43,546 nucleotides of DNA from Bacteroidia bacterium (GTDB lineage: Bacteria > Bacteroidota > Bacteroidia > Bacteroidales > Prolixibacteraceae). Numbering within the stretch: the first letter of the stretch is position 1; every line of letters begins with the position of its first letter. The notes under the pieces are model-generated. The model was not told where the DNA came from, did not search any database, and saw nothing but the letters and a program-made list of their open reading frames with translations. Location: contig JAPLDR010000054.1 of NCBI GenBank assembly GCA_026391655.1, positions 1 to 43,546 on the forward strand, written 5' to 3'. Of this stretch, positions 6,365 to 35,937 are shown one piece after another. The position numbers and the translations under genes were made by a program.

Positions 6365-7141
6365 TTAACCTAGTTTAAGCACAATACTTTGCCCACGTTG
6401 TATTTTTGATCCTGCTCTGAATGATTGCGATTTAACCTTTCCACGACCACGAACCGATACTTTCATTCCGTTATTTTCAAGCAGATAAACCGCATCAGTT
6501 GCACCCATCCCTTTTACATTGGGTACCATTCCCTTTTGAACCTCACGATTAGAGAGTTCGAGACCATCTTCATCGGGTTTAGCTTCCACCCATTCGGATT
6601 TTGTGAATGCAAATCCATTCAGTATATCCAACTCATCCAGTACATTGGCAATATCTTTCTTCCGTCCGGCTGTAATCCCGGGAATGTCGTTTTCAATTTT
6701 GGCAACCGGCAAGTCAATGTCTTCGTCAAGTCCTAATTCATAAGCGTATACATAATCTGAGATTTGCCTGAATACGGGGCCGGCCACTGAACTTCCGTAG
6801 AAGTTTGCACCTTTGGGAGCGTTGATCACTACGATACACGAGTATTTTGGATCATCGGCAGGAAAATAACCAACGAATGAGGATTGGTAAATTTTCTGTC
6901 CGCCATGGCTATAACCTTCCTTGTTATTGGCGACAAGTGCTGTTCCGGTTTTTCCTGCAATTTTGTAAAACTTTGTCTGCAAAGCTTTTGCTGTTCCATT
7001 AGTAAGTACTCCCTCAAGCATGGCACGCGCCATACGCAACGTTTTTGCCGAGCAGATCGACCAAATAAGCCTTTCGGTGCCGATTTTCTCCCTTACATTC
7101 CCGTTCTCGGTAATCCCTTTTACGAGGCGCGGTTTCATCAT
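6365..7141 (-). CDS. ftsI: FtsI/PBP3, C-terminal part (frame-shifted from the N-terminal part)
   Basis: This is the C-terminal half of the septal class B penicillin-binding protein. It contains the KTG triad motif (AGKTGTALV) of the transpeptidase domain and a single C-terminal PASTA domain (VPNVKGMGATDAVYLLENNG to the end, ending in IVLKLG). The listed start is the first ATG in this frame, but homologous sequence begins earlier, at about 7165, with codons reading NAVANGGTMMKPR. It should be fused to the reading frame at 7156-8478; together they give about 700 residues, the normal length for Bacteroidota FtsI. murE follows 11 bp later. Whether the break is real or a sequence error cannot be told from here. 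Confidence 0.85.
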   Translation of the reverse strand: MMKPRLVKGITENGNVREKIGTERLIWSICSAKTLRMARAMLEGVLTNGTAKALQTKFYKIAGKTGTALVANNKEGYSHGGQKIYQSSFVGYFPADDPKYSCIVVINAPKGANFYGSSVAGPVFRQISDYVYAYELGLDEDIDLPVAKIENDIPGITAGRKKDIANVLDELDILNGFAFTKSEWVEAKPDEDGLELSNREVQKGMVPNVKGMGATDAVYLLENNGMKVSVRGRGKVKSQSFRAGSKIQRGQSIVLKLG

Positions 7142-7155
7142 CGTACCGCCGTTAG

Positions 7156-8478
7156 CTACTGCATTATCACCTTCAATTCATAACCAAATGAAAGCCAGGC
7201 CAATGATAGTCCAGACCATAATTTGTCTCCCGGTTTCCGGATGTAAGGTTTAGCCTCACCCTGAATTCCAAGGTTGAGTTCTTCAAGCATTCCAAGTTTT
7301 TCGATCCGATTAACAAAGTCTTTCTCTTCTCCGGTATAACTTTGGGTAATCAATTTGGCAAGCCCCACATTCGAAGATAATTCAAAGGCATGTTTTGCCG
7401 TAATCTTGCCTGCTCCCGGACCTCCCTTTTTATAATCGCTGTCTTTGATCTCTTCACCCTTGTATTTCCATATCCCTTTCCCTGTATCAACGATGGTTGA
7501 GGTGTCAATTTTACCATCTTCGAAAGCAGCCATCAGGGAGGCCAGTTTAAATGTCGATCCTGGTTCGGAACAACCGGCATTCCCAATAGCGTAATTCTGA
7601 TATCCGCCTATTAATTGACCACCATGGTTTCGTCCGAAATTTGCAATAGCCTTAATATCACCAGTATTTACCTCCATTAGAATAGCTGATCCATATTCTG
7701 CCCGCGTCTTCTCCATCTGAAGTTTGAGTGAATAGGTGACCTGATCCTGCATTTTGACATCCAGGGTAGTGATGACATTCTTACCATCTTCCGGATCATC
7801 CTTGCTGATAATGAACCAACGTCCCGACATATTTTGCTTGACCGCTACTCCGTCCACACCCTTCAGCTCTTCTTCGAATGATTTTTCAAGTCCAAATGCT
7901 CCGGCGTTTCCTGTTGAACCTTCAGTTTCACTTTTAGTCAGCTTACCCAATGTTCGCATCGCAAGGTTTCCCGACGGATAAACCCTTTCGTCTTCCTGTT
8001 CAGGCATTAATCCTCCCTTGTTTCTCCCTCTTCGGAGAATAGGAAATTTTTTAATCTCCTGTAATTCAGCATAGGAAACTTTGTGCGGGGTGATCAGAAA
8101 ATAATGTTTTTGTTGTGCAAAGGCTCTTTTTAGTTCAGCTTTGTAAGTTCCGGCCGATCTGTCTCTAAAAAACCTTGAAAGGCAAATCGCGAGCGAGTCT
8201 ACATCGTTATAAAAAAATTTGGACAGCCCGGGAGCTCCAAGATCCATTCGTAGTTCATAAAATGGAACAGAGGTTGCCATTGGACTGCCATCTGCGGCAC
8301 AGATATCGCCACGCCTTGCAGCCAGCGCAAATTCCTTTATATCTAATTTTTGGGCTTCTTTGTCCCATCTGGGCATGTGCTGAATAATGAAAACACGCAC
8401 AATAATGTAGAGGCAGAACAACACAATGGCGGCATACACCAGTCCAAAACGTGTCAATATTGCTTTTCTGATCTCCAT
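7156..8478 (-). CDS. ftsI: FtsI/PBP3, N-terminal part (frame broken near 7165)
   Basis: N-terminal part of the division transpeptidase that cross-links septal peptidoglycan together with FtsW. It has a membrane anchor at about residues 11-31, the PBP dimerisation domain, the catalytic serine motif GSTFKLAS, and the second motif SSNVGLAK. The frame then runs through LAWLSFGYELKV and ends abruptly in IMQ-stop. Homologues continue at this point with roughly nine residues (a PLQ-LTFY-like stretch) before NAVANGG, which is found here in another frame. About 25 bases therefore appear to be missing at 7163-7170. It starts 1 bp after ftsL. An unrepaired break would remove the KTG motif and inactivate an essential protein. 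Confidence 0.88.
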   Translation of the reverse strand: MEIRKAILTRFGLVYAAIVLFCLYIIVRVFIIQHMPRWDKEAQKLDIKEFALAARRGDICAADGSPMATSVPFYELRMDLGAPGLSKFFYNDVDSLAICLSRFFRDRSAGTYKAELKRAFAQQKHYFLITPHKVSYAELQEIKKFPILRRGRNKGGLMPEQEDERVYPSGNLAMRTLGKLTKSETEGSTGNAGAFGLEKSFEEELKGVDGVAVKQNMSGRWFIISKDDPEDGKNVITTLDVKMQDQVTYSLKLQMEKTRAEYGSAILMEVNTGDIKAIANFGRNHGGQLIGGYQNYAIGNAGCSEPGSTFKLASLMAAFEDGKIDTSTIVDTGKGIWKYKGEEIKDSDYKKGGPGAGKITAKHAFELSSNVGLAKLITQSYTGEEKDFVNRIEKLGMLEELNLGIQGEAKPYIRKPGDKLWSGLSLAWLSFGYELKVIMQ

Positions 8479-26171: not shown

Positions 26172-27710
26172 TTATTTAATAACTATTGAACTATCTGGTT
26201 CACAGACAACCCTGAATCCAATCCCTTTAATATCTGAATACCACCAGATACTTTTAGGTTGTTGCGGGTCGGTTTTCAGCCACTCGGTTGTCTGCGTAAA
26301 ACCTCTGGACGCTGACCGGAGGTCTTTTGCATCAAAGGCGTAATTCCCTCCACGAATGACGTATTCCTCGCCCGATTCCGGTCCTTTTGGATTGCTGACA
26401 GTTGTCCCCGTTTTGGAATAGGCGTTTTCGGCATAAAAATCTGAGCAATACTCAAGTACATTGCCTTGCATATTTTTCAGTCCAAACGGATTCGCTTTTA
26501 CAAATCCGGGTTCCTGTGTTTTACCCGTCGAATTAAGTGTGTAAACCACATATCGGCTGATCAATGAAGTGTCGGCTCCAAATATTTCACTACGGAATCC
26601 CCTTTGTGATAAACGTTTAGGATCGCCAGGGAAGAAATATGGAGTTTCGCTGCCTGCCCTGCAAGCATATTCCCATTCTGCTTCAGTAGGTAGCCTGTAA
26701 TGTTTCCCGGTTACTTTTGACAGCCACTGGCAATAGGTGCTTGCGGAATAGTGTGTCATAGTAATGGCCGGACGTTTTCCACTTCCCCATCCCTGATCCG
26801 GAATACCGAAAGGCGGAGTAGGTCCTGTTACCGCATCCGGAGAATTGGCATTGTGCGCTATCACTTCATTGGGATCAACGCGTCCTTCCGACATTGTTGA
26901 CGCAAAGAAGGTCCAAAATTCGTCCCAGCTAACTTCAACTTCACCCATAAAGAATGGTGAAACTGTCACATTACGAACAGGTCCCTCATTGCTTTGGTGG
27001 AAAGGCTCTTTTTCGGGACTTCCCATTTTAAACGTTCCCCCTTTTATAGCAACCATATTAAACGCGACTGCACTATTCGGGATGAATTCCTTATAGTTTT
27101 CAAAGGTAGTAACCGTTGCAGGAGTGGTGTATATATTTTGTGATGAAACGCTGGTGACTGGTACACCGGTCATTTTTCCGTGCTTGTAATTGGGATTGTA
27201 ATGACCTACATCAAGGTGACAATTAATACATTGAATATTCAGTTTTTCGGCATTTTTTTCATAGTAGAGATGGGCTGTGCCTCCTTCGGCAGAAAGTCCT
27301 TTAGAGAACAAATTCTGATGACACTTTAAACACGATTCGTTATAAACAATTTTTACGGCATGTTCAAGAAGTCGCTTGTTTTCCCAGTTAAATGAGGCGC
27401 TGTCCTTAAAATAATAACCATAGATATCCTTCAACCCGGTTCCTGCTTTTGTAAATATATAGCGGTAATTCTCGTTTGGTGGCAAATGGCATTCTATGCA
27501 ATGAATTTTGACACCACTTGGATTGTAAAAGTGAGTTGATTTTTTCCACGCAGCATCAGCATCGGGGTGAATATGACACGATTGACAATATTCGTCGGTG
27601 GAAGTAATATGTAATGCTTTATAACTGACAAATAACAGAATTGCACAAACAAACAATCCGGTAAAAAAAACGTACCAGGACCATTTGGAAAATCTAAACT
27701 TTTTGATCAT
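26172..27710 (-). CDS. Four-heme NapC/NrfH-type cytochrome c fused to an FGE-fold (SUMF1) domain
   Basis: A 512-residue membrane-anchored protein. It has an N-terminal transmembrane helix at about 12-32. Four CxxCH heme sites follow at residues 42-46 (CQSCH), 71-75 (CIECH), 127-131 (CLKCH) and 161-165 (CINCH), in the NapC/NirT/NrfH pattern of quinol-oxidising cytochromes. From about residue 215 to the end is a formylglycine-generating-enzyme-fold domain (MVAIKGGTFKMGSP, RLPTEAEWEYACRAG, GNVLEYCSDFY, YVIRGGNYAFDAKDLRSASR). The two active-site cysteines of true FGE, near the RGG motif, are absent, so sulfatase activation is unlikely; a NirV-like or binding role is possible. The oxidoreductase gene follows 40 bp later. 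Confidence 0.85.
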   Translation of the reverse strand: MIKKFRFSKWSWYVFFTGLFVCAILLFVSYKALHITSTDEYCQSCHIHPDADAAWKKSTHFYNPSGVKIHCIECHLPPNENYRYIFTKAGTGLKDIYGYYFKDSASFNWENKRLLEHAVKIVYNESCLKCHQNLFSKGLSAEGGTAHLYYEKNAEKLNIQCINCHLDVGHYNPNYKHGKMTGVPVTSVSSQNIYTTPATVTTFENYKEFIPNSAVAFNMVAIKGGTFKMGSPEKEPFHQSNEGPVRNVTVSPFFMGEVEVSWDEFWTFFASTMSEGRVDPNEVIAHNANSPDAVTGPTPPFGIPDQGWGSGKRPAITMTHYSASTYCQWLSKVTGKHYRLPTEAEWEYACRAGSETPYFFPGDPKRLSQRGFRSEIFGADTSLISRYVVYTLNSTGKTQEPGFVKANPFGLKNMQGNVLEYCSDFYAENAYSKTGTTVSNPKGPESGEEYVIRGGNYAFDAKDLRSASRGFTQTTEWLKTDPQQPKSIWWYSDIKGIGFRVVCEPDSSIVIK

Positions 27711-30172: not shown

Positions 30173-30808
30173 ATGGACCTGGCAGATATTAGAAATTACT
30201 ACCGACTCAAAATGTTGGACGAGAATAAGATCAATCGCTTTCCCCTGCAACAGTTCGAAATGTGGCTCAATGAAGCAATTGAATCAAAGGTAAATGAACC
30301 CACTGCCATGGCGCTTGCAACGGCAACTCCCAATGGCATCCCTTCATCAAGGATTGTGCTATTAAAAGCTTTTTCGGATCAGGGATTTGGTTTCTTTACA
30401 AATTACTTAAGTCGGAAAGGTGAAGAAATAGCCTTAAATCAACAGGTTGCATTGCTATTTCATTGGCCTGAACTTGAAAGACAGGTCAGAATAGAAGGTT
30501 TAGCGATAAAAACTTCGGATAGCACATCGGATAATTATTTTAACAGCCGACCCTATGATAGCCGGTTGAGTGCCGTTATTTCCAATCAAAGTAAGGAAGT
30601 TCCCGACCGGGCATATCTTGAAAAACTTTGGGAAGTACAACAGCACCAATCAATTGAAAATATGGTGACCCGACCATCCTACTGGGGAGGTTATCTTGTG
30701 GAACCTCAACGGATTGAATTTTGGCAAGGTCGTCCCAACCGGCTTCACGACCGGATTTTATTTTGCCGTAAAGGGGCTGGTTGGGTAATTTCGAGGCTGG
30801 CTCCCTGA
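30173..30808 (+). CDS. pdxH: PdxH, pyridoxamine/pyridoxine 5'-phosphate oxidase
   Basis: This FMN-dependent oxidase makes pyridoxal 5'-phosphate in the vitamin B6 salvage and biosynthesis routes. The 211-residue length is normal. Family segments include the N-terminal RNYYRLKML, the FMN-binding SSRIVLLKAFSDQGFGFFTN and SRKGEEIALN, RQVRIEG, and the C-terminal FWQGRPNRLHDRILF with the conserved Trp, Arg and His; it ends in RLAP as many homologues do. It is a single-gene unit followed at once by a hairpin terminator shared with the opposing tRNA gene. Confidence 0.95.
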   Translation: MDLADIRNYYRLKMLDENKINRFPLQQFEMWLNEAIESKVNEPTAMALATATPNGIPSSRIVLLKAFSDQGFGFFTNYLSRKGEEIALNQQVALLFHWPELERQVRIEGLAIKTSDSTSDNYFNSRPYDSRLSAVISNQSKEVPDRAYLEKLWEVQQHQSIENMVTRPSYWGGYLVEPQRIEFWQGRPNRLHDRILFCRKGAGWVISRLAP

Positions 30809-30812
30809 AAAT

Positions 30813-30845
30813 CAAAGTGCCAGAGCTTCAAACCCTGGCACTTTG
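30813..30845. terminator. Bidirectional terminator between pdxH and tRNA-Arg
   Basis: Perfect 11-bp stem CAAAGTGCCAG (30813-30823) / CTGGCACTTTG (30835-30845) with an 11-nt loop. It begins 5 bp after the pdxH stop and abuts the 3' end of the tRNA gene on the other strand. Confidence 0.75.
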
Positions 30846-30917
30846 TAGCCTCACCGCGACTCGAACGCGAATCTAAAGTTTAGGAAACTTCCATTCTATC
30901 CCTTGAACTATGAGGCC
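30846..30917 (-). tRNA. tRNA-Arg (anticodon CCT)
   Basis: The minus-strand sequence folds as a 72-nt cloverleaf: acceptor GGCCTCA / TGAGGCT (one G-U pair) with discriminator A, D-stem GTTC/GAAT with loop AAGGGATA, anticodon stem GAAGT/ACTTT with loop TTCCTAA (anticodon CCT, reading AGG), a 4-base variable loop, and T-arm TCGCG-TTCGAGT-CGCGG. The CCA end is not encoded. Confidence 0.93.
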
Positions 30918-30990: not shown

Positions 30991-32148
30991 TTAATGATTA
31001 TTTCCGACTGGTACACTTTTCAGTTTTTTGGCAGCCGCCTTCAGTACTTCATCGGGTTTGGCAAAGCATATTCTAATAAGTTGATTTTTAGTTTTTTCGT
31101 GTTGAAAAGCAGAGAATGGCACAGTAGCGACACCGTACTCACGAATGAGTCTTGTCGCAAATTCAATATCCGATTCGTCAGATATCTTACTAAAATCTAA
31201 AATCTGATAAAAGGTCGATTGGATTGGAACCAGTACAAAATTGCTCCCTTCCAATAATTTAATAAACAGATCGCGTTTGCTATGGTACGTTTCACAAATA
31301 GCTTCGAAATCGGGGCCATCCTGTAAAAACTCAGCCAGTGCAAACTGCGCAGGAGTATTTACGCTAAATCCCTGAAACTGCTGGATTTTTCTGAATTCAG
31401 ACATTAATTTTTCTGGACCATAGATATATCCAATACCCCACCCGGTGATATTGAAAACCGGACCAAAACTTGACACGATTAAGCTTTTGGATGCAAGTTC
31501 CGGAATAGAAGCGAGACTATGGAATTTCAGGTCGTCAAAAACAATATGATCAAAAACTTCATTGCTCAGAATAACCAGTTTAGTCCCGTTTGTCAACCTT
31601 TTAAGCTGGACGATATCTTCTTCACTGAAAATCCTTCCAATAGGATTTTGCGGATTATTGATGATGATCATTTTGGTCTTCGAAGTAACCAATTTTTTCA
31701 CCTCTTCCCAGTCGATCCGGAAATCCGGCATTTTCAGGTTGACAAAAATAGGACGACCGCCATTCAATTCTATAAAAGGGGCATACGACTCCTGAATCGG
31801 TTCGAAAATAAGCGCCTCGTCACCCTCTTTTACGAAAGTACTGATGGCGGTTGTCATTGCCTGTGCCGGTCCGGCAGTGATCGTAATATCTGTTTCCGGG
31901 TTGAATAAAGTGTTGTTCTGCTGGTTTACAAGATTGATAATTTGCTCTCTCAATTGTTCTACTCCTTCGGCAGGAGAATAATCATTATTGCCGAGTCTCA
32001 TATTTTTACTCACCAAATCAATTAACTTTTCCGGACAGACAAGATTGGACATGGGAATTGCTAAATCGATTGCATGAACCTCTTCGGCCATTCCGAGAAT
32101 CGTCGTAAAGGCATTTTTCTTCGAAGTTGGGATTTTTGATGAAACCAT
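30991..32148 (-). CDS. Class I/II aminotransferase-fold protein lacking the PLP lysine
   Basis: A 385-residue protein with the full fold-type I aminotransferase layout of the methionine/kynurenine aminotransferase-like group (NNDYSPAEGVEQLRE, ITAGPAQAM, NNPQNPIGRIFSEED, and the C-terminal IRICFAKPDEVLK with the carboxylate-binding arginine). The PLP site is degenerate. The Schiff-base lysine of the SFGK motif is proline (SSFGPVFNITGW, Pro230). The aspartate that pairs with the pyridine nitrogen is asparagine and the phosphate-contacting tyrosine is phenylalanine (LSNEVFDH, Asn196, Phe199). The basic residue after GW is glycine (Gly238). The frame is otherwise intact, so it may be a pseudo-enzyme with a new role. 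It has its own promoter. Confidence 0.85.
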   Translation of the reverse strand: MVSSKIPTSKKNAFTTILGMAEEVHAIDLAIPMSNLVCPEKLIDLVSKNMRLGNNDYSPAEGVEQLREQIINLVNQQNNTLFNPETDITITAGPAQAMTTAISTFVKEGDEALIFEPIQESYAPFIELNGGRPIFVNLKMPDFRIDWEEVKKLVTSKTKMIIINNPQNPIGRIFSEEDIVQLKRLTNGTKLVILSNEVFDHIVFDDLKFHSLASIPELASKSLIVSSFGPVFNITGWGIGYIYGPEKLMSEFRKIQQFQGFSVNTPAQFALAEFLQDGPDFEAICETYHSKRDLFIKLLEGSNFVLVPIQSTFYQILDFSKISDESDIEFATRLIREYGVATVPFSAFQHEKTKNQLIRICFAKPDEVLKAAAKKLKSVPVGNNH

Positions 32149-32171: not shown

Positions 32172-32200
32172 CAAAAGTAACAATATTTTTTATCGTACAA
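32172..32200 (-). promoter_or_regulatory. Promoter of the aminotransferase-fold gene
   Basis: Minus-strand TACTTTTG (plus 32172-32179) is a perfect TAnnTTTG. A TTG lies 18 bp upstream of it (plus CAA, 32198-32200), matching the core of the -33 element. The -7 element is 23 bp before the ATG. Confidence 0.55.
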
Positions 32201-32265: not shown

Positions 32266-32991
32266 TTAATGAAGCATTTCCCTTAATATTTCCAGTGATT
32301 TTAAATTAAGTTTATTTCCAAGGTGGAGACCGTAATATTCGAGAATGAAATCAAGCCAGGTGTTCCGTAATCCCTTATCTGGCTTGAATTCAGATAGATT
32401 TTGATAGTTCATTTTAATTAATTGGGCGAGTATCTCACTTTCCCGATTTTTTAAAAACCATGGGTGAGTGGGCGGCGATAAAACAAAATTTCCGGCGACC
32501 ATATCGAAAAACTGATTCGACGAAGTAAAGTTGTTTGCCGGAGCAAATCCAAGAAACCGGGTGAGCTGAATTAAAAATAGAAGATGATAGTTGTTCACAC
32601 CATCCTCCAGTAAATCAAGCACCTGAATAGATTGAAAAAGAAATTCAAATAAATCGGGTCGCGATTCCTCTTCACGCAGAACCTTTTCTAAAAGTTCGGC
32701 CAAAAAGAGCGCCAGTGATGATTTGACTATCCCAAAAGGTATTGATCCGAATGGCGATATATTTTTGACCTCCTTCACTCTTTGCAATTCTCTTCCCGGT
32801 TTATAGTCGACTTCCATCTCCAGAAGGAATAGTTGTTTAAGCAGATTACCTTTAACCGACGATTTTTTCCCGTGAGTCCCCTGCATAATAAACGACATCC
32901 TGCCAAACGCCTCGGTGTAAATGGTTGTAATCATTGCCGTATCACCATATTTAAGGCTGCGTAGTACTATTCCGCGGGTTTTTTGTTGCAT
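32266..32991 (-). CDS. recO: RecO, recombination mediator
   Basis: A 241-residue DNA repair protein that anneals DNA strands and loads RecA with RecR. The N-terminal OB-fold carries the family hallmark GIVLRSLKYGDTAMITTIYT and GRMSFIMQG. The helical C-terminal domain (SSLALFLAELLEKVLREEES, HLLFLIQLTRFLGFAP) is typical, and the usual zinc-finger cysteines are absent, as in many Bacteroidota RecO proteins. Its ATG lies 3 bp after the porZ stop, so it is expressed as the last gene of rdgB-porZ-recO. Confidence 0.92.
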   Translation of the reverse strand: MQQKTRGIVLRSLKYGDTAMITTIYTEAFGRMSFIMQGTHGKKSSVKGNLLKQLFLLEMEVDYKPGRELQRVKEVKNISPFGSIPFGIVKSSLALFLAELLEKVLREEESRPDLFEFLFQSIQVLDLLEDGVNNYHLLFLIQLTRFLGFAPANNFTSSNQFFDMVAGNFVLSPPTHPWFLKNRESEILAQLIKMNYQNLSEFKPDKGLRNTWLDFILEYYGLHLGNKLNLKSLEILREMLH

Positions 32992-32994
32992 GGT

Positions 32995-35304
32995 TCAATG
33001 GATGAAAAGAAGTTTTATAACGCGCGACTCGTTTCCTTCACTATCGGCGCAAAAAATCAAATAGACTCCAGTATTGACCCGTTCGCCATTTCGGTTTTTT
33101 CCGTCCCAGATAGCACGCCCTCCGTATGAGATGGTTTTGTAAACCAAATTTCCGGCAACATCGGTTATTTTCAAAGTCGATTCGTTGGTAAGGCCATCAA
33201 TTGTAATATTGCCATGAAAGGTTTCTCTTACCGGATTTGGCCAGGCATAAAGACGCTGAAACGAATTGTTACCCTGAGTAGCATCACCCATCCACGAGAT
33301 CAGACCACGTTCGGTAGCAAAGAAAACCTCGCCATTCTGACCGTTAATTGCAATGCTGCTAACATTGTTCGAAAACAGTGGTGAATTATCCGTATTGAAA
33401 TGGCGAATCAGTTTCGATCCGTCTGCAGAAAAGAGAAAAACACCTGAATTTACTGTTCCGAACCATTTGCGATTGCCTCCATCAACAGCAATGGAGTTAA
33501 CTATTTCATTTTCAAGAAGTGGGTGGAATAATCCATCGTCAAGATCAACTGAAGGCTGAACTCCGTAAAACTCGCTATCTCCGAACAAAGATTCAGGATT
33601 AGTGTAAAGTACAATGCCGTTCTCCGTTCCCACCCAAAGATAACCGTCATGGTCTTCTGATAGAATATTAATCTGGTTAAACCCTTTTAAAATTGTAGTT
33701 TCATTATTCGAAAACCGGCTTCGAACTGAAGTTTTCCTGAATAAATCATCGCCTGAGTTGTCTAATGTTTTTTGGGTTCGGAGTGCAAAAAGATCTGAAT
33801 GATTGACTATTATCCATTTGGTATCTGTTTTTGTAATTATCACATCACCAGCCGAAGTAAATTGATTATCGATTCCCGGATAACTAAACGATTTCCAGGT
33901 ACCATCCTCTTTTATAACATGTAACTGATTTTTCCCCAAAGGGTTGGTTATCCACAAATTTCCGTTAGCATCAAAATTCAATCCGCCTGTTTTACATATC
34001 CCATTGGAAGATTCCAGTGGCGAATTACTTGAATTGTACTGTTTCAAAGTTTTTTGTTCTTCAAATTCAAGTAATCCGTCTTCCCGGCTTGATGCCCAAT
34101 AATGTTCCGGGTTTGAAGGTGATGGAATTACTCTCGTAATATTTTTTAAACCTGACAACTTGCTGTCGGAATACTCGTTAACAGAAATCCAATTTTGATC
34201 CTTCAACCGGTGAATTTCAGCCGGAACTGCTGCTGATGCAGCATTATCGTTCCCGGTTGCAATGTATAAATTGCTTCCGGAGGTCGTCAGCCAGCGTGAA
34301 TTATTATTGGCCGGACTTGAAGGAACAATTGACTGAAAAGAACCATCTCCCGTTTTTCGGATCAGTCCGAATATATGATCGCCAATCCACAAATCACCTG
34401 AAATGTCAATCATTGCATCCAATGGGGCGATTTTTGAAGTAGTTTGAATAAGGTTACTATAGGTCGAAACTGTAATTCGGCTGTTTGCACCAATTACTTC
34501 AATACTTTTGTCGCATACAAGCGCTAAAACCGACGGGAATGCCTTGGTTTTTCTTATTCCGACGATTTCAGGATAGACAGATTGCCAGGTTATTCCGTCA
34601 AATAAATAGATTTTGCCAGCGTTATCGCAGGTGTAAACTTTGTTGTTGAAAACAGTGATTGAATTGAACTGATTTTGCGGAAACGGAAGCCGGTCCTGAA
34701 GAATCCAGTTATGATAATCCTGAAGATTCGGATTGGTTTTTTCAGCCCTGAATACTCCTGATTCGGTTGCAGCCCAGAAATAGCGTTCATCAACCGCAAG
34801 CTCTTTAACCGCAATTGCCGAAGCATCAGGCCCAATAACCCATGTTTCGGCCACTTCCCATTTTTTCAAATTGATTTTTACGATACCAAAATCACAGCTT
34901 AACCACGCAAAATCTCCTTCACAAAAGATATTATTAATTGATTTATCAGGGATTGATGTTTTGAGTTTAAGGTCAGGCAGGTTAAGTATTGTATTTCCCA
35001 AAAGCAGGTTGAGGTTTCCGTTCGAATAACCAATGATTAAGGCGCCTTTTGACATTGACCAGCAAATGGCTGAAATCCCGGAATCGGATAACCCTTCAAC
35101 GCGCGACCTTGTTTCGAAACTATTGTCAGAACGATTGTAGGAAAAAATACCATCTTCGGTAGCCGCGAAAATTTTTTGATCACCCTGCGCAACTGCAATT
35201 ATTTGATAATATGACAAATACGAATGCCAGTTATTTGCCGGAATCTCACAGAAAACGGAGACTCCAATTACCAAAAAAAACTTTGTTAGCAGTTTCGCCT
35301 TCAT
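32995..35304 (-). CDS. porZ: PorZ-like type IX secretion protein with beta-propellers and sorting domain
   Basis: A protein of about 769 residues. It has a signal peptide (KLLTKFFLVIGVSVFCEIPA), followed by many propeller-blade repeats of the two-component-regulator type (IFAATEDGIFSYNR, WAATESGVFRAE, LWVGTENGIVLYTN, KWFGTVNSGVFLF, VFFATERGLISWM). A C-terminal domain of about 85 residues (LYAWPNPVRETFHGNITIDG to IKLLFIH) matches T9SS type A sorting signals. Size and architecture fit PorZ, a surface component of the T9SS attachment complex that helps the PorU sortase. ATG at 35304 is used; TTG one codon earlier is also open. It sits between rdgB and recO in one transcription unit. Confidence 0.85.
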   Translation of the reverse strand: MKAKLLTKFFLVIGVSVFCEIPANNWHSYLSYYQIIAVAQGDQKIFAATEDGIFSYNRSDNSFETRSRVEGLSDSGISAICWSMSKGALIIGYSNGNLNLLLGNTILNLPDLKLKTSIPDKSINNIFCEGDFAWLSCDFGIVKINLKKWEVAETWVIGPDASAIAVKELAVDERYFWAATESGVFRAEKTNPNLQDYHNWILQDRLPFPQNQFNSITVFNNKVYTCDNAGKIYLFDGITWQSVYPEIVGIRKTKAFPSVLALVCDKSIEVIGANSRITVSTYSNLIQTTSKIAPLDAMIDISGDLWIGDHIFGLIRKTGDGSFQSIVPSSPANNNSRWLTTSGSNLYIATGNDNAASAAVPAEIHRLKDQNWISVNEYSDSKLSGLKNITRVIPSPSNPEHYWASSREDGLLEFEEQKTLKQYNSSNSPLESSNGICKTGGLNFDANGNLWITNPLGKNQLHVIKEDGTWKSFSYPGIDNQFTSAGDVIITKTDTKWIIVNHSDLFALRTQKTLDNSGDDLFRKTSVRSRFSNNETTILKGFNQINILSEDHDGYLWVGTENGIVLYTNPESLFGDSEFYGVQPSVDLDDGLFHPLLENEIVNSIAVDGGNRKWFGTVNSGVFLFSADGSKLIRHFNTDNSPLFSNNVSSIAINGQNGEVFFATERGLISWMGDATQGNNSFQRLYAWPNPVRETFHGNITIDGLTNESTLKITDVAGNLVYKTISYGGRAIWDGKNRNGERVNTGVYLIFCADSEGNESRVIKLLFIH

Positions 35305-35355
35305 CAATGACTCTATATTTAGTTAATGATAGACTATCCGATTCAGGGGATATAT

Positions 35356-35937
35356 TTAATGTATATTTTTCAGATAATCAACCAATTTCATTACGGCCCG
35401 CCCCCTGTGGCTAATCTGGTTTTTATCATCTGCCGGCATTTCGGCAAACGAAAGGTTATAGCCGTCGGGCATAAAGATAGGGTCGTATCCGAAACCGGCC
35501 TCACCGTGTTTTTTGGTAAGAATTTTTCCATTGACAATCCCTTCAAATTGTTTTTCTTCACCATCAATGACCAGCGAAATAACACATCTGAAACGTGCAT
35601 TCCGGTTTGATTCGCCTTCCATTTTTTCCAAAACCTTCATCATGTTGGCAGCAGCGCTCCTTTCCTCTCCCGCATAACGGGCGGAATAAACGCCCGGCTC
35701 ATTTCCAAGGGATTCGATTTCAAGTCCTGTGTCGTCAGCAAAGCAATTAATCCCGTATTTATTCCAGATATAGAATGATTTTTGTGCTGCATTGACTTCA
35801 AGTGTTGTTCCCGTTTCAGGGATTTCGTCGGTGCAACCGATGTCATTTAGATTTAATAAATCGAATTCTGAAGGAAGAATCTGCCTCAACTCCCTTAGTT
35901 TATGATCGTTATTTGTTGCAAATACCAGTTTCTTCAT
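35356..35937 (-). CDS. rdgB: RdgB/HAM1, non-canonical purine NTP pyrophosphatase
   Basis: This house-cleaning enzyme hydrolyses ITP, dITP and XTP to the monophosphates, keeping them out of nucleic acids. The 193-residue protein opens with the family motif [18 protein letters not shown]. It then has [20 protein letters not shown] with the metal-binding aspartates, [21 protein letters not shown] and the C-terminal [10 protein letters not shown]. It is the first gene of rdgB-porZ-recO (48-52 bp to porZ), with a perfect -7 element just upstream. Confidence 0.95.

Follow-up and report, generated by a model that had tools for sequence, protein, structure and literature searches.

A protein with the predicted fold of a methionine aminotransferase is retained in the family Prolixibacteraceae by a clade whose 73 distinct members all lack the lysine that would form the Schiff base with PLP. 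The most probable explanation is that these proteins are maintained, PLP-free pseudoenzymes, likely dimeric, that act by binding or regulation. The member that led to the clade is encoded in the window, by which is meant the whole stretch of 43,546 nucleotides that was analysed; this gene and its neighbours are listed in Table 1. The first-pass annotation of the window had preferred a pseudoenzyme or a changed chemistry over random decay. This reading is supported by the common loss in 73 proteins and by dN/dS medians of 0.042-0.044 in the clade, against 0.028 in Lys-containing relatives.

Table 1. Positions in the window of the Lys-less gene, its altered and retained codons, and the neighbouring features
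Feature	Position	Strand	Basis or remark
Aminotransferase-fold protein without Schiff-base Lys	30991..32148	-	385-aa ORF; PF00155 E 5.8e-51; YbdL is best solved relative
Arg359 codon, retained alpha-carboxylate Arg (YbdL Arg366)	31072..31074	-	YbdL alignment
Gly238 codon, phosphate-binding Lys/Arg position after GW	31435..31437	-	ORF and YbdL alignment
Pro230 codon, Schiff-base Lys position (YbdL Lys236)	31459..31461	-	ORF and YbdL alignment
Phe199 codon, O3' Tyr position	31552..31554	-	ORF and YbdL alignment
Asn196 codon, pyridine-nitrogen Asp position	31561..31563	-	ORF and YbdL alignment
Gln119 codon, ring-stacking Tyr position	31792..31794	-	YbdL alignment
Pro94-Ala95 codons, in place of phosphate-loop Ala-Thr (GATEA to GPAQA)	31864..31869	-	YbdL alignment
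TAnnTTTG promoter-like element TACTTTTG	32172..32179	-	31 nt ahead of start codon
recO, upstream, same strand	32266..32991	-	Pfam RecO_N and RecO_C; upstream of gene in 58/59 named loci
porZ-like gene	32995..35307	-	Pfam PorZ_N_b_propeller; in block in 49/59 named loci
Ham1 family gene	35356..35937	-	Pfam Ham1p_like; in block in 53/59 named loci
tRNA-Arg (CCT), between gene and pdxH	30845-30917	-	
pdxH, adjoining gene	30173-30808		tRNA-Arg between

Fold and cofactor site of the window protein

The window protein is homologous to Aminotran_1_2 (PF00155) over the domain, at 174.2 bits against a cut-off of 19.7. The top NCBIfam model is that of methionine aminotransferase (NF006569, PRK09082), where the score of 408.2 bits lies below the cut-off of 420. 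The nearest solved relative in both sequence and fold is E. coli YbdL (1u08; phmmer E 1.6e-80, 35% identity). An AF2 model of the 385-residue chain (pLDDT 90.9), made from an alignment in which 12/53 rows are Lys-containing and thus biased toward the canonical fold, places the protein in fold type I with a TM of 0.94 to YbdL. The Lys-less protein accordingly has, as modelled, the methionine-aminotransferase fold, which the first-pass annotation had also taken to be retained.

The phmmer alignment sets Pro230, Asn196, Phe199 and Gly238 opposite Lys236, Asp202, Tyr205 and Lys244 of YbdL. We take these YbdL residues to be those that form the Schiff base and contact the pyridine nitrogen, the O3' and the phosphate, and Arg366 to bind the carboxylate, with all roles as in the aspartate aminotransferase literature. 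The first-pass annotation had put the same four residues at cofactor positions; the alignment confirms this, and its coordinates are exact by codon count from 32148. All four losses that it counted are present, but the count was too low. In the phosphate loop Ala100 and Thr101 of YbdL have become Pro94 and Ala95, the ring-stacking Tyr125 is Gln119, and the substrate loop QGFPD is replaced by IPMSN at residues 31-35. Its statement that substrate-side motifs are kept holds for Arg359 and Asn168 but not for the substrate loop. There is no lysine among residues 226-240 of the window protein. Of the 22 other class I/II aminotransferases in this genome, seven were aligned, and in all seven a lysine occupies the Schiff-base column.

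The protein thus resembles YbdL-type methionine aminotransferases (1u08, NF006569) in its full-length homology, its fold, the NTPxQ and RxCFAK motifs and the carboxylate Arg. It differs from them in having neither Schiff-base Lys, phosphate Lys nor O3' Tyr, and in its altered phosphate and substrate loops. Two sets of residues that go with membership in PF00155 are therefore missing: the Schiff-base Lys (Pro230 here, Lys in 0/73 clade proteins), and the pyridine Asp, O3' Tyr and phosphate Lys/Arg, replaced by Asn196, Phe199 and Gly238. Family models would nevertheless label these Lys-less proteins aminotransferases.

Conservation and constraint in the Lys-less clade

The 73 distinct Lys-less proteins form one clade, starred in the 131-row tree, and its 17 representatives in the careful 58-row tree are joined with support of 98/99. 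The clade belongs to the Prolixibacteraceae (Prolixibacter, Sunxiuqinia, Puteibacter, Mangrovibacterium, Gaoshiqia and many MAGs), and its members come from many assemblies, isolates included; some of the MAGs bear other or vaguer record names. A search of 61 genomes found orthologues in the window genome and in 16 of 17 others of the same genus, at 80-94% identity and without stops. The remaining genome of the genus, G017, lacks the gene; it is 78% complete and likewise has no recO match, and the absence may be a gap in the assembly. Family-wide, matches at E 1e-60 or better, part of which were read residue by residue, occur in 81/140 genomes and 16/23 genera. Stop codons are absent from the matches listed in both searches. 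Lys-containing relatives also occur within the family, separate from the clade (L043 from genome G012, L046 and L047), and the claim of Lys loss is made for the 73-protein clade. One Lys-containing relative, L135, lies inside a 1411-aa open frame and is perhaps part of a fusion.

Some genera can do without the gene: of 14 genomes lacking it that were searched (14 of 59 in the family), 13 have recO, and the one that does not is 78% complete. By eye, no aminotransferase lies beside these 13 recO genes in the downstream frames inspected.

Within the clade, residue 230 is Pro in 58 rows, Ala in seven, Thr in three, Ser in two, and Asp, His and Arg in one each. Residue 238 is Gly in 67/73 and Lys in none, and residue 199 is Phe in 68/73 with Tyr kept in 3/73. 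Residue 196 is still Asp in 35/73, and Asn in 33 rows that all belong to the window's subclade, in which N196, F199 and G238 are fixed (33/33). It follows, by parsimony applied by eye, that the lysines were probably lost first and the aspartate later. Of the other cofactor positions, Thr95 is kept in 4/73 and Tyr119 in 25/73. The first-pass annotation had proposed as a test that a clade should share the four changes at low dN/dS. Such a clade exists, and the loss of both lysines runs through all of it; the change at residue 196 does not. A second lysine aligned with the Schiff-base column, named as evidence against the reading, is found in 0/73. A caution is Lys233, present in 4/73 rows, all of the Prolixibacter group (L027, L078, L147, L153; the Prolixibacter bellariivorans orthologue, at 60% identity, carries it), which lies three residues past the lost Schiff-base position and could in principle reach a ligand; beyond these four, no clade row has a lysine within 226-240.

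Mean site entropy is 1.41 bits in the clade, no higher than the 1.58 bits of the Lys-containing relatives. Median dN/dS (Nei-Gojobori, pairs with dS under 2, the remaining pairs being saturated synonymously) is 0.043 in the window's genus (23/136 pairs usable), 0.044 (54/171) and 0.042 (21/28) in two other Lys-less groups, and 0.028 in Lys-containing relatives (9/45). Root-to-tip branches are longer in the clade (median 1.19 vs 0.93). The median variability percentile of eight cofactor sites rises from 19 in Lys-containing to 58 in Lys-less proteins, and that of seven substrate or dimer sites goes from 9 to 11; among the latter are Tyr57 (15 to 53) and Asn264 (9 to 30). The relaxation thus seems to be mostly local to the cofactor sites. 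Judged by these rates, related bacteria appear to keep the Lys-less protein almost as strictly as working enzymes. Catalytic residues that are gone throughout a clade under purifying selection are the pattern of a conserved pseudoenzyme.

The recO locus and relatives in the order

In 58/59 named loci (L056-L114, all Lys-less) the gene comes after a recO of the same orientation, and the exception begins 39 bases from a contig end. In 7/59 loci ham1 and recO occur without porZ, and the gene is still with recO there. The two genes are separated by 72-219 nt, with a median of 117 over 96 loci that include duplicates. Within the flanking DNA examined, some of it short, recO is beside 0/19 Lys-containing named relatives. 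The first-pass annotation had credited the gene with its own promoter, and a TAnnTTTG sequence, which we take to be the Bacteroidota promoter element, indeed occurs in the 120 nt ahead of the start in 69/72 clade genes, at a distance of 25-35 nt in 61 of these. The same sequence occurs in 10% of shuffles and ahead of 23/46 Lys-containing genes.

Downstream of the Lys-less gene there is no conserved gene, the largest group being present in 17/58 loci. The neighbouring pdxH was considered as a PLP-related link and rejected. The window pdxH has no match in 88 loci (L048-L135; in the subset L056-L114, downstream sequence of 1 kb or more is available for 50 of 59), and so the adjacency looks like a local arrangement. 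Elsewhere in the window, a NapC/NirT cytochrome c domain is fused to an FGE-sulfatase domain (26172-27710, minus strand; Pfam), and genes like this fusion lie near the Lys-less gene locus in L083, L092 (Sunxiuqinia dokdonensis) and L095. The window also holds an ftsI-like penicillin-binding protein gene that is split in the transpeptidase domain (6365-7141 and 7156-8478, minus strand), either by a genuine frameshift or through misassembly.

Relatives were sought at the level of the order in 393 genomes, drawn from a larger group, with a Lys-less profile at an E 1e-100 cut-off, a biased sample. All 145 matches were aligned; 131 have Lys230, and the other 14 have Glu (five), Pro (four), Ile (two), Arg (two) or Val (one). 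A single origin for the 27 Lys-less rows of the 58-row tree is rejected (p-AU 7e-36), which rules out one loss for all of them; on this tree, the Schiff-base Lys has been lost more than once. Other families of the order contain a Glu230 clade (L133, L134, L161, L162, L164, L167), which shares the loss of the same Lys and has recO beside 5/6 members, but differs from the Prolixibacteraceae clade in having Glu rather than Pro at 230 and Asp or Glu at 196. Its placement as sister of the Prolixibacteraceae clade has support of 83/60, and the two clades may or may not share one loss. A simpler-model tree, in which the direction of change is less clear, puts the Glu230 rows at the base, and this placement may be long-branch attraction.

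Among the order-level members, 9/18 that are linked to recO lack the Lys, compared with 5/127 of the others (Fisher p 1.2e-6), and recO is beside 9/131 Lys-containing members. The recO link as a cause of Lys loss was nevertheless set aside; a tree-corrected pairing test shows nothing (3 pairs on supported branches). In genus g119, the Lys is present in two members and replaced by Ile or Val in two more; all four lie behind recO and have Gly at 359 (L264, L265, L270, L279), which argues against a universal role of Arg359. That residue is kept in 82/85 Lys-less proteins, namely 72/73 of the clade and 10/12 other relatives (10/10 and 0/2). Its retention may be structural only, as 26 of the 33 positions that are near-invariant in Lys-containing relatives persist in 68/73 or more of the clade proteins.

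What the protein may do

Ordinary PLP chemistry appears very unlikely, because there is neither a Schiff-base Lys nor a phosphate Lys and residue 230 is varied. Recent decay of one copy, or an artefact of assembly, is a rival explanation; in its favour, the assembly is fragmented (149 contigs) and another window gene appears split (6365-8478). An isolated decaying copy was also what the first-pass annotation had said would count against it. With 73 distinct Lys-less proteins from many assemblies, isolates among them, dN/dS of about 0.04 and no stops among the matches listed, this explanation is highly improbable. A changed chemistry, in which the former pocket would serve a PLP-free enzyme through different catalytic residues, would agree with the strong constraint seen in dN/dS, with the fixation of N196, F199 and G238 in the nearest subclade, and with a rebuilt substrate loop in which P34 is kept in 0/73. 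Against it, residue 230 itself varies, and only eight positions are conserved in the clade yet in the minority among Lys-containing relatives (M1, C38, P39, F143, K157, I234, L271 and K352), none of them known to be a PLP first-shell position. Comparison of sites with those relatives revealed no new constellation of conserved polar residues in place of the active site. For this reason a pseudoenzyme is favoured, new chemistry seems less likely than binding, and the changed enzyme is quite unlikely.

Another rival is a catalytically dead partner subunit, which would pair with and tune a Lys-containing aminotransferase of the cell, on the model of LCB1 and LCB2 in serine palmitoyltransferase. 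LCB1 (SPTLC1) is a PLP-enzyme homologue that evolution has maintained without the cofactor Lys (PMC3794620), and in this it is like the window protein. It is unlike it in being eukaryotic, from another subfamily, and the partner of a homologous active subunit. P266 and Q268 are kept in 73/73, the genome has 22 other class I/II aminotransferases, and a nearer Lys-containing relative exists in some other genomes of the genus (41% in G012, about 30% in others). The window genome, however, has no close Lys-containing paralogue, its next matches being at about 29% identity. Moreover, the Tyr70-type Y57, which we take to act in trans, is relaxed (48/73 Tyr, 20 Phe), whereas Arg359, presumably acting in cis, is kept in 72/73; this is the reverse of what a helper should show. 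A partner role is conceivable but unlikely. The shared locus has also raised the idea of a function in DNA repair, alongside RecO, or in type IX secretion, alongside PorZ. The place behind recO speaks for it, but position alone is no proof of function, and the gene has its own promoter-like element. With ham1 and recO present without porZ in some loci, and recO retained by all but one, incomplete, of the 14 genomes without the gene that were searched, such a role is distinctly doubtful.

The maintained pseudoenzyme is the likeliest of these readings. A methionine-aminotransferase-like gene behind recO would have lost its PLP-holding residues no later than in the ancestor of the Lys-less clade of Prolixibacteraceae. 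Since then the protein would have been kept folded and probably dimeric, with neither an internal aldimine nor a normal cofactor site possible. Its most likely role would be that of a sensor or regulator which binds either a protein partner or, by way of the retained Arg359, a small carboxylate (an amino or keto acid). The failure to bind PLP, the dimerisation and the binding role are all inferred.

In the literature, as covered by titles and opening abstracts and mostly outside subscription papers, Lys-less methionine aminotransferases of this kind are not described. The intermediates, with Asp196 kept and Lys230 and Lys238 gone, occur in one order together with Lys-containing forms, so that the succession of losses that dismantles a PLP site can be followed in living species. 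If the proteins do bind without catalysing, they would be a family-wide bacterial counterpart of LCB1. More tentatively, the recO-linked aminotransferase of the order might already have had a second, non-catalytic job before the loss, for example as a carboxylate sensor. That job would have allowed separate erosion of the PLP site in several families, and the outcome would be a family of binding proteins, free of PLP and so far unrecognised, among environmental Bacteroidota.
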